From Treponema sp. (GTDB taxonomy: Bacteria > Spirochaetota > Spirochaetia > Treponematales > Breznakiellaceae), in NCBI GenBank assembly GCA_031276815.1, contig JAISMJ010000073.1, positions 1-34,158 of the forward strand: a stretch of 34,158 nucleotides of DNA. Direction: 5' to 3'. The notes beneath the pieces are model-generated. The model was not told where the DNA came from and ran no database searches. It saw only the letters and a program-made list of their open reading frames with translations. Shown piece after piece: positions 5,303 through 33,380 of this stretch; within the stretch, counting starts at the first letter, position 1; every line of letters starts with the position of its first letter. Both the position numbers and the translations under genes were made by a program.

Positions 5303-5344
5303 GTGCGGTATACCGGCGGGGTAGTTACAAAGGGTCGGCGTCCA

Positions 5345-5520
5345 GCATTAGCTTGTAGCGATAACGATACGTAACGCCGCTAGCGGAGACTTCGGACTTA
5401 CAGCGTCCGTCCACTGCGCCTGATTGGTAGAGCTTTGCTCTCATAGAGCTTGCTCTATCGGTCTACGTGTGGGCTGTGAAACAAGAAGCTCAACGCTAAC
5501 CTTTAACGTTGAGCGGCTCA
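5345..5520 (+). ncRNA. Candidate orphan omega-RNA / IS200-IS605 right-end-like element, copy 1
   Basis: GGAGACTTCGGACTTA, tandem AGAGCTTTGCTCT/TAGAGCTTGCTCTA hairpins, GGGCTGTGAAACAAGAAGC, 8-bp stem GCTCAACG...CGTTGAGC (5488-5514), then GGCTCA; shared with 8652-8819. Confidence 0.45.
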
Positions 5521-6498
5521 TTTGTATTCCGGTATGGGTATGCGGTCGAGTATGCTTTCGGTTATTCTGTCGGGAAGCACGCCGCGCACAATGCTTTCCG
5601 GCGAAAGCAGCATCCTTTGACGGAACACAGGCGCCGCTATTTCCTTGACGTCTTCGGGTATCGCGTAATCGCGTCCCCGTATGCCCGCCAACGCCTGGCT
5701 TGCGCGGTAGAGCGCCAGACTTCCACGCGGCGATATGCCGATGCGGAGTCTCGGCTCCTGCCGGGTCGCGTCGATGAGCGCCAACATATATGCTTTTACC
5801 GCCGGTTCAACATGGATTTGACTTACCGCTTCCTGAAGCGTTGCGGCATGTGAACCTATATCCGCGGCTTGTACCGCCGGTCGTATATCCATAACCGGAT
5901 GCGTTATGCGCCGCTGATGTTCCAGCATACGGCTTTCCGCTTCCAGATCAGGGTAGCCGATAGGCAGGGAAAGCAAGAACCTGTCCTTTTGCGCTTCAGG
6001 AAGGGGAAACGTTCCCTCGAATTCAACCGGATTTTCCGTAGCAAGTACAAAGAACGGTTCCGGCAGTTTCAGACGTTTACCCTCAACGCTTATCTGTCCC
6101 TCCGCCATCGCCTCAAGGAGCGCCGATTGGGTGCGCGGCGTTGCGCGGTTTATTTCATCAACCAGTACAAATTGGTTGACGATAGGACCTCTGCGGTACA
6201 CAAAGCGCCCGCCCTTTTCCTCCTGCTGCCATACTGAAACGCCGAGTATGTCTGCGGGAAGCAGATCAGGCGTACATTGGATGCGGGAGAAACTCAATCC
6301 AAGACTTCCGGCAAAGGCGCGCGCCAGAATGGTCTTGCCGGTACCGGGTACGTCTTCCAGCAGTACGTGACCCCGCGCAAGAAAAGCCGCGAGTACCATG
6401 TCGATAACCGCGGTCTTTCCCAAGAACACCGTTTCTATATTTGATCTGATAGTGTCGGCAAATTCTGAAATAGTCATAGTACCTAGTATAAGATACAA
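5518..6498 (-). CDS. MoxR-family AAA+ ATPase
   Basis: GHVLLEDVPGTGKTILARAFA, DEINRATPRTQSALLEAM, FVLATENPVEFEGTFPLPEAQKDRF motifs. Confidence 0.95.
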   Translation of the reverse strand: MYLILGTMTISEFADTIRSNIETVFLGKTAVIDMVLAAFLARGHVLLEDVPGTGKTILARAFAGSLGLSFSRIQCTPDLLPADILGVSVWQQEEKGGRFVYRRGPIVNQFVLVDEINRATPRTQSALLEAMAEGQISVEGKRLKLPEPFFVLATENPVEFEGTFPLPEAQKDRFLLSLPIGYPDLEAESRMLEHQRRITHPVMDIRPAVQAADIGSHAATLQEAVSQIHVEPAVKAYMLALIDATRQEPRLRIGISPRGSLALYRASQALAGIRGRDYAIPEDVKEIAAPVFRQRMLLSPESIVRGVLPDRITESILDRIPIPEYK

Positions 6499-6768
6499 TC
6501 ATGCAAAAAACAATAGGAAGGTTTCCGCCAATAACGTGCGGAGTGTGTCATGTGTATGAATGAAGACATAGACTGATTCAACTAGGCTAATGGAACTATA
6601 GAGTGATCCCAAAAAACAAAACACATACAAAGCTGGTATGCGGAGTACCTCTCCTCCCTATTCTCAAAACACGCCGGTATAGGCTATAGCCCGCAAGCCA
6701 TACTGGAAATACATGATCGATCCGCCTGCAATGCCGCAAACGCATGTAACAACAGAACGCAATAAGAC

Positions 6769-6798
6769 TTGACAAGAGAGTATAGATATAGGTAGTCT
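6769..6798 (+). promoter_or_regulatory. Putative sigma70 promoter upstream of the 7010 gene
   Basis: TTGACA (6769-6774), 18-nt spacer, TAGTCT (6793-6798); -35 context CTTGACAAGA shared with promoters at 8617 and 24416. Confidence 0.35.
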
Positions 6799-7009
6799 AA
6801 CTACTTATGGACATAAAAGATCCGCGCAAGAACTATAAAACAACCGCAACGCCGGTATATAGCTGCCAATAGCATGTGATATGGCGTCCGAAATACCAGC
6901 GGAACGAGCTTCGTATCTCGAAACAATAAGAGGCGAGCCGATTCCGCCGATGAGTCGAATGACATGTTCACCCCTTGCAACTTCGGGCGGCTGACAGTAC
7001 CATACACTT

Positions 7010-8272: not shown

Positions 8273-8616
8273 CGCTCCGGCTATTGCGAACCTGCGGTCT
8301 GCACCGGCGGAACCGGGGCAGACTGAACCGCAAGCCGCCAACAGCGCGACACAGCGGCGAAGTTTGCCCTCTTTTCATGCTCTCCCTATTATTACAAGGC
8401 GCAAGGGGTGTCTGTCTAACAATCACTCATGATTCTTACAAAATCATGTGGTGCAGTACATGCAACAAGAGATACTGTTGTGGCGACAGGGATATACACG
8501 CCTATGGATGGGCGCACTGGCTGCTATTGATAGCAGAGGTGAAATTCCCCTTAGCAAAACCGCGTAATCGGAAGGAAGTAGGAAACATTGTTCAGATTAC
8601 GAATTTGAAATAATGC

Positions 8617-8645
8617 TTGACAAGAATAATGAATAGCCGTATACT
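8617..8645 (+). promoter_or_regulatory. Near-consensus sigma70 promoter driving the structured leader/ncRNA at 8652
   Basis: TTGACA (8617-8622), 17 nt, TATACT (8640-8645). Confidence 0.6.
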
Positions 8646-8651
8646 CCAAGA

Positions 8652-8819
8652 AAGCATTAAATTCGCACGAATTTAATGCTTGTGGAGACTTAGGACTTAT
8701 GAGTAAGTACGTCGCCGCTTGGAGTAGCAGAGCTTGCTCTATCAGTTTAAATTGGGCCTGGGAAACAAGAAGCCCCATTGCTAAAGCGAAGGCTCTTGTT
8801 AAAACTTTGAGTAGCTCAC
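8652..8819 (+). ncRNA. Candidate orphan omega-RNA / IS200-IS605 right-end-like element, copy 2 (or structured 5' leader)
   Basis: 14-bp hairpin AAGCATTAAATTCG-ca-CGAATTTAATGCTT (8652-8681), GGAGACTTAGGACTTA, AGAGCTTGCTCT hairpin, GGGCCTGGGAAACAAGAAGCCCCATTGCTAA, terminal GAGTAGCTCAC. Confidence 0.45.
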
Positions 8820-8853
8820 TGCAATTTCTGTAGATAATAGAGGCGTTGCGTGT

Positions 8854-10458
8854 ATGAAATTAAAAGCCATCTTACTTTTATTGTTTTTTTTTGTATTCTT
8901 CTCGCAGCTCTTTGGATTGGGTGAGATAACTCTGCGTATTGGGCAGGATGCGGGATGGTCTGTGGTTGAAAAACGTGATGGCGTTACCGAAGTTGACGCC
9001 CAGCGTCCATGGACAGTGCTTTCGCTGATTGCGGCTCAACCTGCCATGCGGGGCGTTTATACCGATATGTTGTTTACTTTTGACGAGACTTCGCCGGATC
9101 GCTTTGACGACAGTGCCGGTCATTACAAGGTACTGACGAGGGATGCCTTTGCTGTATCGCAGACTGACAGTCTTACGGCACGGTATGGAGCAGGCGCGGC
9201 GATTTTTTTAGGACGAAACAGCGCCGCATCCGATGGTCCGCTTGTCATTACGCCACAAACAGACGATGCGCTTTTCGCATCCGGGAAACGGATTGGGGAT
9301 TTTAGCATAGAGTTTTGGGCGCTGCCGTTTAATGCGGATACGGGTGAACAGGTGTTTTCGTGGAGTGCTGCAAAATGGCGGACGAGAATCGACTATATCA
9401 TGCAAAGCGTTACGTGTACCATATCTAAAAACAGGTTCCAATGGACATTTCTTGATTTCTTTGCTTCAGCGCGCAATGACGTGCGTTCAACAATTACCCT
9501 GATCGGCAGTATGCCGATCATTCCTAATACATGGTCGCATCATCTTATTCGTTTTGACGCTCATACCGGTCTTTTGGAGTATCTCGTTAATGGTAAGCTC
9601 GAAGCCCTTACCTATGCGACTTCAACAGGACGCGAGGGAGGCGATGTGTATGCCCCGCTCATTGGAGAGGATGGTAGTCTTGTCTTGGGCAAACAATTTT
9701 CAGGACTGCTTGATGAAGTACGCATGATCGGAGGGTACCGGATTGATACGGAAACTATGGAAACGCTGGACATCGCAAAATTTCCCGCTGCTGGCGGACG
9801 CATAGAGACTCGCAGTATTGACCTTGGAGAGCCGAATGTTCAGATCGTCAGGGTTGATGCTTCAACCGGCAGACTTTCTTTCGCAAATAACACGATCAGG
9901 AATGAATTTGCCGGTACGTCCGCAATCAAGTTTTCCGATGAATCCGCGCTTCAATTCTTTATCCGTACCTCTGATTCTCCGTACCACTGGGTAAGCGAAT
10001 GGCGGGTGATAACGCCCGGAGTACCCCTTGTTGAGCAGGTAAAGGGCAGATATGTACAGCTTGCGGTGCAGTTTTACCCAAGTGGAGACGGGGAATCGAC
10101 TCCATATCTGGACGAAATCCGTATTGTTTACAAACCCAATGAACCGCCGTTTCCTCCTACGCTGATTACTGCCATTGCCGGAGATGGCGCCGTGGATCTA
10201 TCATGGAAAAACAGCCCGGATATTGATACAATGGGCTATTTTGTATATTATGGTACCGTTTCCGGTATGTATTTTGGAGAAGGCGCACTATTAGGAGCGT
10301 CTCCTATAGATGTGGGAAAACGTAATTCGATTCGGATTGATGGACTCAAAAACGGTACGCTTTATTATTTTACTATTGCTGCATACGACAGTTTGAGTCC
10401 ACCCCATCTGGGAATGTTTTCCCGTGAAATAACAGCAAGACCTCTACAGGTACGCTGA
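8854..10458 (+). CDS. Secreted LamG-like / fibronectin type III domain protein
   Basis: Signal peptide; concanavalin/LamG-like SIEFWALPF...WSHHLIRFDAHTGLLEYLVNGK; C-terminal FN3 PPTLITAIAGDGAVDLSWKNSPDIDTMGYFVYYGT. Confidence 0.75.
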   Translation: MKLKAILLLLFFFVFFSQLFGLGEITLRIGQDAGWSVVEKRDGVTEVDAQRPWTVLSLIAAQPAMRGVYTDMLFTFDETSPDRFDDSAGHYKVLTRDAFAVSQTDSLTARYGAGAAIFLGRNSAASDGPLVITPQTDDALFASGKRIGDFSIEFWALPFNADTGEQVFSWSAAKWRTRIDYIMQSVTCTISKNRFQWTFLDFFASARNDVRSTITLIGSMPIIPNTWSHHLIRFDAHTGLLEYLVNGKLEALTYATSTGREGGDVYAPLIGEDGSLVLGKQFSGLLDEVRMIGGYRIDTETMETLDIAKFPAAGGRIETRSIDLGEPNVQIVRVDASTGRLSFANNTIRNEFAGTSAIKFSDESALQFFIRTSDSPYHWVSEWRVITPGVPLVEQVKGRYVQLAVQFYPSGDGESTPYLDEIRIVYKPNEPPFPPTLITAIAGDGAVDLSWKNSPDIDTMGYFVYYGTVSGMYFGEGALLGASPIDVGKRNSIRIDGLKNGTLYYFTIAAYDSLSPPHLGMFSREITARPLQVR

Positions 10459-15734: not shown

Positions 15735-15884
15735 GCGCCCGCCGTACCGCCCGTATATGGCGCATAGCGCAAAGAACGGCGCTTTTTATACGTCCGCTTT
15801 TCCCGCAACCGCGCTCCCTATCCCTTCGTCTCGTGTTAACCTCGTTCTAACCATGCCCTTTCTACCATCTATATCCTAGGTGGT

Positions 15885-15910
15885 GTCGTCAAAAGGATCC
15901 TTTTGACGAC
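15885..15910. repeat. 26-nt perfect palindrome
   Basis: GTCGTCAAAAGGATCCTTTTGACGAC, followed by TAGACGA-N6-TCGTCTA. Confidence 0.9.
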
Positions 15911-16186
15911 TCTCCCTAATAGACGACACATTTCGTCTATACGACCGTATTGCTACGGTATACGCAATCTTTTTTGCTTTGTCAAGGAGGGAAGCGTTGA
16001 CGAACCGGCGTCCGGTAATCTTCTCTGCGGTCAATACGGCACGGCTTCTCCAAGCCGCCGGGCATCACCTTGCCATCCTTCATCAGTACGTCATATCACC
16101 ATGAGCGATTTGGGAATATCCCACAGGCATGGGAAGAAACGCAGCGATTGACCTAGCCAGCCGGAACCCCGAGTCGCCTACCGACG

Positions 16187-24205: not shown

Positions 24206-24415
24206 AACGGGCTTTCGAACCTTATAGTTTTATTATAACATATAGCATTTATAAAAAAATAACATAAGAAATAAAAAAATACCGATTATAATTTTTATAG
24301 ACGACAGCGTACGCTCATCGTCTAGCCCTCACCTCTTCGGTTCCATAGCTATTGAATTTTCTTTAAAAACTCCACTCCGCATCAAAAAGATTTGAAAACA
24401 ATAAAAAAAACACGC

Positions 24416-24444
24416 TTGACAAGAACGATAGATAATGATAGATT
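24416..24444 (+). promoter_or_regulatory. sigma70-like promoter for the 24676 gene leader
   Basis: TTGACA (24416-24421), 17 nt, TAGATT (24439-24444). Confidence 0.5.
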
Positions 24445-24675
24445 AACTACAAGAATGAAAATTGTATGGGCGTATGAATTTAATGCTTGTGGAGTTAGAG
24501 AAGGCCGGATTGTTACAGCTTGTCCTTCAGTCTAAGTTTCGCCAGCAAAATAAGCTTGTCATAGATTTGGTCTTTAGTAACTCACGTGTGTGCTTATATT
24601 CTGATTGATAAAGCGCTTCCCACATAAACTGAAGTGTTGGGAAAGCCCAAAGTATAAAGGAGATACCGTGGCTTG

Positions 24676-25701
24676 ATGGTGAGATTTAACACCTTTTTAA
24701 GAATGGGATTACTCTGTGTGCTCATAGCGTGTGTTGTCGCGATGATTTTTCCTAAAAAAGTTAATGCAAGCAAACTTGAATCGCAAACGGAAACGGTGGA
24801 AGCCCGCGGCGGTCTGGAACTTACTATCGCTATTGATACACAGAGCGATATGGAAACGGGTACTACAGCCGAAATTGAACCTGAAGAGTTCTCTAAGCCG
24901 AAAATGTTGCTGTATACTTCTTATACTGTTCAGTCAGGTGATGTGATTGGAACAATTGCACAACGATTTGCCCTTGAACAGGGAACCCTCATATCGGTAA
25001 ACAATATAACAAATCCCAAAACATTACAGATAGGGCAGGTACTCAAAATTCCAAACCAGGACGGCGTGCTTGTAAAAGTTGAAAGAATAGAAAAAAAACT
25101 GCCGACCTTAAACGAATTTATAAAGAGAATTTCCCAAAATAGAAAATATCAGGGGACTCCTTCTTCGGAATCAGGATTACAAGCGCTTGCGGTTTCTATA
25201 CAAAGCGCAAATGAATTATTTATGGATATACATGAAAAATTCGGAACGGAAACTAAAAGCGTGTTTATTCCCGGAGTGCAGATAAGTAATTTAGAGTTGC
25301 AGGAAATCAACGGAGATATCTTCTTGTGGCCCGTTCGCGGGCGCATTACCGACACATACGGCTACCGCTACGATCCATTCGGCGGTAATTCCCGAGAATT
25401 CCACAACGGTATGGATATAAGCGCACGTACGGGTACGCCGGTATACGCCACCATGGCTGGGCGTGTGACGTTTGCGGGCTGGAGCGATTCCTATGGATAC
25501 TATGTGGTGATTAGCCATTCGGGGGGGTACCGTACTCTCTATGCACACATGAGTGTTCTCCGCGCCAAAACGGGCGACTATGTAGAGGCTGGCGGGCGTA
25601 TCGGCGATGTGGGAAGTACTGGACGCAGTACCGGATCTCACTTGCACTTCACCGTGTATAAGAACGGTGTTACGGTAAATCCACGATCCTTGCTGCGGTA
25701 A
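24676..25701 (+). CDS. LysM + M23 (LytM-type) metallopeptidase
   Basis: LysM YTVQSGDVIGTIAQRF...LKIPN; M23 DPFGGNSREFHNGMDISARTGTPVYATMAGRV...SGGYRTLYAHMS...TGRSTGSHLHF. Confidence 0.93.
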   Translation: MVRFNTFLRMGLLCVLIACVVAMIFPKKVNASKLESQTETVEARGGLELTIAIDTQSDMETGTTAEIEPEEFSKPKMLLYTSYTVQSGDVIGTIAQRFALEQGTLISVNNITNPKTLQIGQVLKIPNQDGVLVKVERIEKKLPTLNEFIKRISQNRKYQGTPSSESGLQALAVSIQSANELFMDIHEKFGTETKSVFIPGVQISNLELQEINGDIFLWPVRGRITDTYGYRYDPFGGNSREFHNGMDISARTGTPVYATMAGRVTFAGWSDSYGYYVVISHSGGYRTLYAHMSVLRAKTGDYVEAGGRIGDVGSTGRSTGSHLHFTVYKNGVTVNPRSLLR

Positions 25702-33191: not shown

Positions 33192-33380
33192 GCATAACGG
33201 GACTGTTTACGCTTCGCCGCAGTAGCGGCTCGGGCTACGTTTTGGCTAGGTCATTCCGCTACGCTTCATTCCCACGCCAAAACTCTGCCACATTTTTGCA
33301 GCCCTGGTCTTGCTACGCAAGCCCTTATTCGGGCTGCAAAACCGTCGTAAACAGCCGGAACGTTATGTGTAATTTGGACT
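33192..33380. repeat. Long attC-like structured site
   Basis: Left arm GCATAACGGGACTGTTTACGC (33192-33212), right arm CGTAAACAGCCGGAACGTTATGTG (33346-33369); internal IRs GTTTTGGC/GCCAAAAC (33239-33246, 33276-33283) and TTTTGCAGCCC/GGGCTGCAAAA (33294-33304, 33331-33341). Confidence 0.55.

Follow-up and report, generated by a model that had tools for sequence, protein, structure and literature searches.

A probable mobile promoter derived from an IS200/IS605 omega-RNA element in front of a Treponema LamG gene

Small non-autonomous derivatives of IS200/IS605 transposons, called PATEs, are described in Halanaerobium hydrogeniformans (PMC7290912) and Haloquadratum (PMC3119063); they combine a left-end hairpin, the last part of tnpB and the right end, with no intact tnpA or tnpB. 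The Halanaerobium element is built like the family reported here, and the paper describing it does not mention promoters (PMC7290912), whereas the Treponema family adds the tnpA promoter and comprises about 45 copies, many of them placed as gene leaders. For ISDra2-type TnpB, the omega-RNA (reRNA) likewise includes both the end of tnpB (3') and the right end, flanking DNA serves as guide, and the target or TAM adjoins the left end, being TTGAT for ISDra2 and TTAC for IS608 (PMC8612924). Unlike these RNAs, the element studied here carries a promoter of its own, lacks tnpB in cis and has a guide that matches its own insertion site alone. Promoter-carrying MITEs and insertion sequences, such as Correia repeats and IS elements activating silent genes (PMC2229807, PMC9330008), are also small mobile elements that provide the following gene with an outward-facing promoter; the Treponema family differs in its single-strand Y1 type, its omega-RNA leader and several insertions in native promoter spacers. 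Another spirochaete, Borrelia, retains IS605 stem-loop relics at lipoprotein genes, where IS605 ends stay near genes after transposase loss and show RNA-level conservation, but those relics lie at gene 3' ends without a promoter, whereas the Treponema copies are 5' leaders with one. TldR RNA-guided repressors are domesticated TnpB-guide pairs affecting host gene expression (PMC13418256); by comparison, neither an inactive TnpB partner nor a trans target was found in the genome studied here (81% complete). A literature search of incomplete coverage found no paper in which omega-RNA elements of the IS200/IS605 type serve as gene promoters.

The window, meaning the whole 34,158-nucleotide stretch analyzed, belongs to a Treponema genome (G000) of 2.37 Mb in 131 contigs. 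The closest relatives of its LamG protein are in Treponema MAGs, whose isolate codes fit termite-gut metagenomes, and we take the host to be a termite-gut Treponema. An initial annotation had described 8617-8853 as the second of two omega-RNA-like copies, lying behind a strong promoter in the leader of a LamG/FN3 gene. The motifs that it listed (promoter, 14-bp stem, blocks shared with 5345-5520, an end at 8819 and a reading frame at 8854) are all present as given, and both copies are real; their extents needed revision, since the element starts at about 8604 rather than 8617 and the first copy runs from 5329 to 5521. The features of the window that concern this family are as follows.

5325-5521, plus strand: first copy, element 5329-5521 behind TTAC (5325-5328), promoter deleted (alignment, covariance model)
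6746-6904, plus strand: autonomous element reduced to its promoter and the 5' portion of Y1 tnpA (80% identical to the element at C107/L199, E=3e-39)
8604-8819, plus strand: subfamily B non-autonomous IS200/IS605 element, presumably immobile relic without the left-end hairpin (alignment, covariance-model match)
8617-8645, plus strand: predicted element promoter TTGACA-N17-TATACT, derived from the element's tnpA promoter (consensus scan, conserved hexamers)
8652-8681, plus strand: perfect stem-loop of 14 bp at the position of the first helix of the omega-RNA, which is changed here (sequence, fold, family covariation)
8683-8819, plus strand: scaffold of the omega-RNA with the right end of the transposon, GGGAAACAAGAAGCCCC to GTAGCTCAC (alignment; homologue after tnpB at C96)
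8820-8853, plus strand: pre-insertion flank with the native LamG promoter remnant (GATAAT, 8833-8838) and leader, formally in the "guide" position (uninterrupted in L167-L173)
8854-10458, plus strand: LamG/FN3 gene, 534 aa (Pfam Laminin_G_3, 1.7e-8; fn3, 2.2e-4)
24405-24585, plus strand: third copy, weak and degenerate, with TTGACA-N17-TAGATT (covariance model, 44.5 bits; promoter match)

The window element and its family

Alignment of the window element to the other copies begins at 8604, and a covariance model trained on 19 copies matches 8640-8819 (121.7 bits, E=4.7e-26). The hexamers TTGACA (8617-8622) and TATACT (8640-8645), separated by a 17-nt spacer, score 11/12 in the consensus scan; the perfect stem reads AAGCATTAAATTCG-CACG-AATTTAATGCTT, and GAGTAGCTCAC terminates at 8819. 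In this stem, the 5' arm is exactly reverse-complementary to the conserved 3' arm; the sister copies differ there, and the stem looks like a quasi-palindrome made perfect. The RNA fold of the window copy is better than those of its shuffles (z=-2.6). Rfam at the gathering threshold matched only a tRNA in the whole window, indicating that no curated RNA family covers the element. The right-end hairpin is present in the family; the left-end sequence, found in 5329-5521 and many other copies, has been lost from 8604-8819, implying that this copy should no longer move.

The annotation's proposal of a dispersed family was borne out, with far more members than its two: the genome carries 48 BLAST matches to the query 8600-8860, the covariance model finds 45 at E<1e-3, and the window alone adds a third copy and the tnpA relic. 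The window element is one of about 45 to 50 dispersed copies, far above chance. The copies have the right end GTAGCTCAC in common and many begin with the left end AAAAGGTCGCCG; the exact right-end pattern had no match in the genome contig collection beyond the window's own genome. Two subfamilies can be defined: A, marked by GGAGGCTGAAACCGC, and B, marked by GGAGACTTCGGACTTA and an extra hairpin, to which the window copies belong. At C27 (L045/L061) and C44 (L044/L054), A copies lie inside or beside B copies, nested or abutting, suggesting that subfamily A is younger. Insertions at fliS and at an M23 peptidase gene are common to G000 and its nearest congener G005 and absent in the other congeners examined. 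At fliS, G000 also carries a further, nested element, so the family was active both before and after the split of the two. Within the genus the RNA is nearly restricted to the window species. G062, of another genus (g45, L206-L275) of the same family Breznakiellaceae, carries 63 RNA copies; the strongest ones inspected mostly follow a broken or decayed tnpB, and no unbroken tnpB reading frame was readable at the inspected copies. G062 was rejected as an independent check on whether the promoter is used, since those copies mostly accompany tnpB remnants and not a tnpA-promoter fusion.

The origin of the family can be read from its less reduced relatives. At C96, an RNA copy (417-566) lies directly 3' of a tnpB reading frame (C96:7-480) cut by the contig end. 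This fragment matches Pfam Cas12f1-like_TNB above the cut-off, is nearest to the PDB entries 8iaz, 8bf8 and 8h1j, all TnpB structures, and to NCBIfam TnpB models, with scores under the NCBIfam cut-offs because it is partial; its alignments contain the cysteines of the zinc finger along with the later RuvC motifs. At C107 (L199), and also at C38, the left end of the family (TTTTAC joined to AAAAGGTCGGCG) and its promoter (TTGACAAGAAAGATAGATATAAGTATACT) precede a broken Y1 tnpA. It follows from these loci that the small copies consist of the left end, the tnpA promoter and the omega-RNA with the right end, tnpA and most of tnpB having been deleted. In empty orthologous sites, TTAC, the target of IS608 (PMC8612924), coincides exactly with the junction for three genes (C14, C92 and est) and lies within 1 to 4 nt of it for hisD, oadG, cheW and tRNA-Glu. 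Judged by sequence, the window element is a non-autonomous, IS608-like IS200/IS605 element in which a tnpA promoter is fused to an omega-RNA scaffold and right end; the omega-RNA label given by the initial annotation is correct by descent, and TnpB homologues do occur in the genome. No unbroken autonomous copy or intact cognate TnpB was recovered from the window genome, which is 81% complete and in which C96 is cut by its contig end. The TnpB at C22 was considered as a partner and is probably not cognate, having its own right end of another type (by eye). Near this unrelated tnpB, at about 620-1035 of L031, lies a tandem array of GATAACGACACTATCGCTAGC-like units.

Compensatory changes are present in the scaffold. 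Across the family's named helices, 92.3% of cells are paired, compared to 34 to 46% in slid controls, and 23 cells are doubly changed, compared to 9.7 in shuffles (none of 500 reaches 23), a result that is supportive rather than a P value because the sequences are related. Consensus helix 1 of the omega-RNA is among those that covary. The pattern fits selection on an omega-RNA during the active period of the transposon and does not demonstrate RNA-level selection on the leader copies.

Copies in front of genes and the native LamG promoter

Seven congeners (L167-L173) have the same LamG gene without the element, the site being uninterrupted as TTGACTTTGCGG joined to CAATTTCCGTAGATAATA, and in all seven the native promoter TTGACTTTGCGGCAATTTCCGTAGATAATA (TTGACT-N17-GATAAT) is intact and conserved. 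In the window genome, GTAGCTCAC runs into TGCAATTTCTGTAGATAATA; the element sits between the native -35 and -10, and the native -35 is lost. The junction at the LamG site shows GCGG rather than TTAC. The uninterrupted orthologous sites identify the "guide" 8820-8840 as the old LamG promoter and leader, and a search of the genome (81% complete) allowing up to 3 mismatches found no second match, which leaves the earlier suggestion of a guide for another target unsupported.

All copies and their neighbors were taken from the genome and the orthologous upstream regions from congeners, with gene starts from a simple codon-score caller. Genes downstream of copies include eno, fliS, yebC, oadG, hisD, pgsA, rhaM and flhF (NCBIfam, over cut-off), together with a CheW-like gene and a tRNA-Glu before infC (infC named from its sequence alone). 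Among the older subfamily B copies, all 15 with a TTGACA/TATACT-like promoter are directed into a gene at most 250 bp away, compared to 6 of the 12 without a promoter (6 for, 6 against; Fisher P=0.003), counts that come from copies of one genome and are not fully independent. The 15 had included the copy at yebC, which has a native promoter, and missed one at an ABC-transporter gene (TTGACA-N17-TATATT); after the swap the count is still 15/15. The younger subfamily A has no preferred direction (6 for, 6 against). Over all copies together, the orientation bias proved weaker than thought: all older copies against a background of 0.6 gave only P=0.04 and older versus younger copies P=0.13, so the clear bias is limited to promoter-bearing older copies. 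In the 15 leader copies, 5 of 180 hexamer cells depart from consensus versus 60 of 240 in the spacer, a difference that is partly by construction because these copies were chosen for a recognizable promoter; the orientation result is unaffected.

At eno and fliS, a promoter conserved in congeners is missing from the window genome and an element with an intact promoter stands there; yebC, flhF and est keep their native promoters and have a promoterless element. LamG, eno and fliS thus each have an in-element promoter directed into the gene and a native promoter lost or displaced. Insertions between a native -35 and -10 are found at LamG (8820), cheW (L074), C8 (L039) and C92 (L046), and probably at the M23 gene (24439); target preference and selection are both possible reasons for this repetition. 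The leader copies at pgsA, cheW, rhaM and tRNA-Glu have lost much of the scaffold and retained the promoter.

We consider it likely that a mobile promoter took over from native promoters and left an omega-RNA fossil as mRNA leader. An internal deletion would have brought the left end and its tnpA promoter next to the right end and the omega-RNA scaffold derived from tnpB, making each copy a mobile sigma-70-type promoter that faces out via its own right end. One such element entered the LamG promoter in the spacer that separated its native -35 from its native -10. LamG transcription most likely begins just past TATACT, at about 8652, and the transcript would carry the omega-RNA scaffold as a leader of about 200 nt, cross the old -10 region and continue into the gene. 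The same replacement has apparently happened at at least 14 other genes (about 15 sister copies). The reading draws on the element's descent, its insertion point, the loss of the native -35, the orientation bias and the survival of the promoter hexamers, all visible in the compared genomes; on this basis the element most likely supplies the principal working promoter in vivo, with its RNA scaffold most likely a passenger in the leader. The old -10 (GATAAT) downstream of the element could still take part in a second start. In one Treponema lineage with empty sites in close relatives, a TnpB-family transposon appears visibly to have replaced the promoters of housekeeping, motility and envelope genes, so that the turnover of promoters through a mobile element would be readable gene by gene. 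Several host mRNAs should then start with omega-RNA, which makes TnpB action on host transcripts testable.

Competing explanations

It is unlikely that the copies are neutral debris, intergenic by chance, with the genes driven by native promoters elsewhere. The even orientation of subfamily A and the native promoters kept at yebC, flhF and est are what such debris would leave, but the uniform direction of the promoter-bearing older copies, the lost -35 of LamG and the absence at eno and fliS of promoters conserved in congeners are not.

The initial annotation left open whether the element is transcribed as an ncRNA or used as a 5'UTR element, and the evidence favors the leader position. A discrete omega-RNA that starts from the 8617 promoter and serves as a short guide RNA for TnpB, or for an inactive repressor resembling it, acting in trans or at empty sites, is quite unlikely, even though that promoter is strong, the scaffold and right end are intact enough for the 121.7-bit match, the helices covary, and the C96 fragment keeps a zinc finger and later RuvC motifs. 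Its guide occurs once in the genome within 3 mismatches, and the element has replaced the TAM at that single site, so it would target nothing; a scan of the interval between the element and the LamG gene found no terminator-like site; four leader copies shed much of the scaffold and kept the promoter; and alongside the lack of an intact cognate TnpB, the tnpB genes beside G062 copies are broken.

A structured 5'UTR regulator, with the leader scaffold recruited for translation or stability control of LamG and its sister genes, is very unlikely. The leader position and low folding energy are compatible with it, the right-end hairpin at fliS is retained via paired changes between G000 and G005 (by eye), and the 14-bp stem at the mRNA 5' end could protect the mRNA. 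However, the scaffold is shortened in several leader copies that retain the promoter, the downstream genes have no common pathway, and the covariation is accounted for by the omega-RNA of the active transposon. Also very unlikely is a post-transcriptional regulon of the scattered leaders, in which a genome-encoded TnpB or its relic binds or processes the omega-RNA scaffold at the start of the eno, fliS, LamG and other mRNAs and tunes their expression.

Other relics in the window

The first copy (5329-5521) is complete, including the left-end sequence (88.7 bits), and matches the window element by BLAST over 45 nt (82%, E about 1e-7); a promoter scan of 5325-5521 found no promoter-like site, and both flanking genes are on the minus strand. 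The tnpA relic at 6746-6904 lies between a MoxR-type ATPase gene and an Rsm22-like gene. The third copy is upstream of an M23/LysM gene (24673-25701; Pfam Peptidase_M23) and corresponds to C55:10001-10146 in G005, the other congeners examined having a native promoter there. Another dispersed repeat, apparently unrelated to the omega-RNA-like family, occurs at 15875-16100 and 33193-33377 of the window and is common to L198 (C117).
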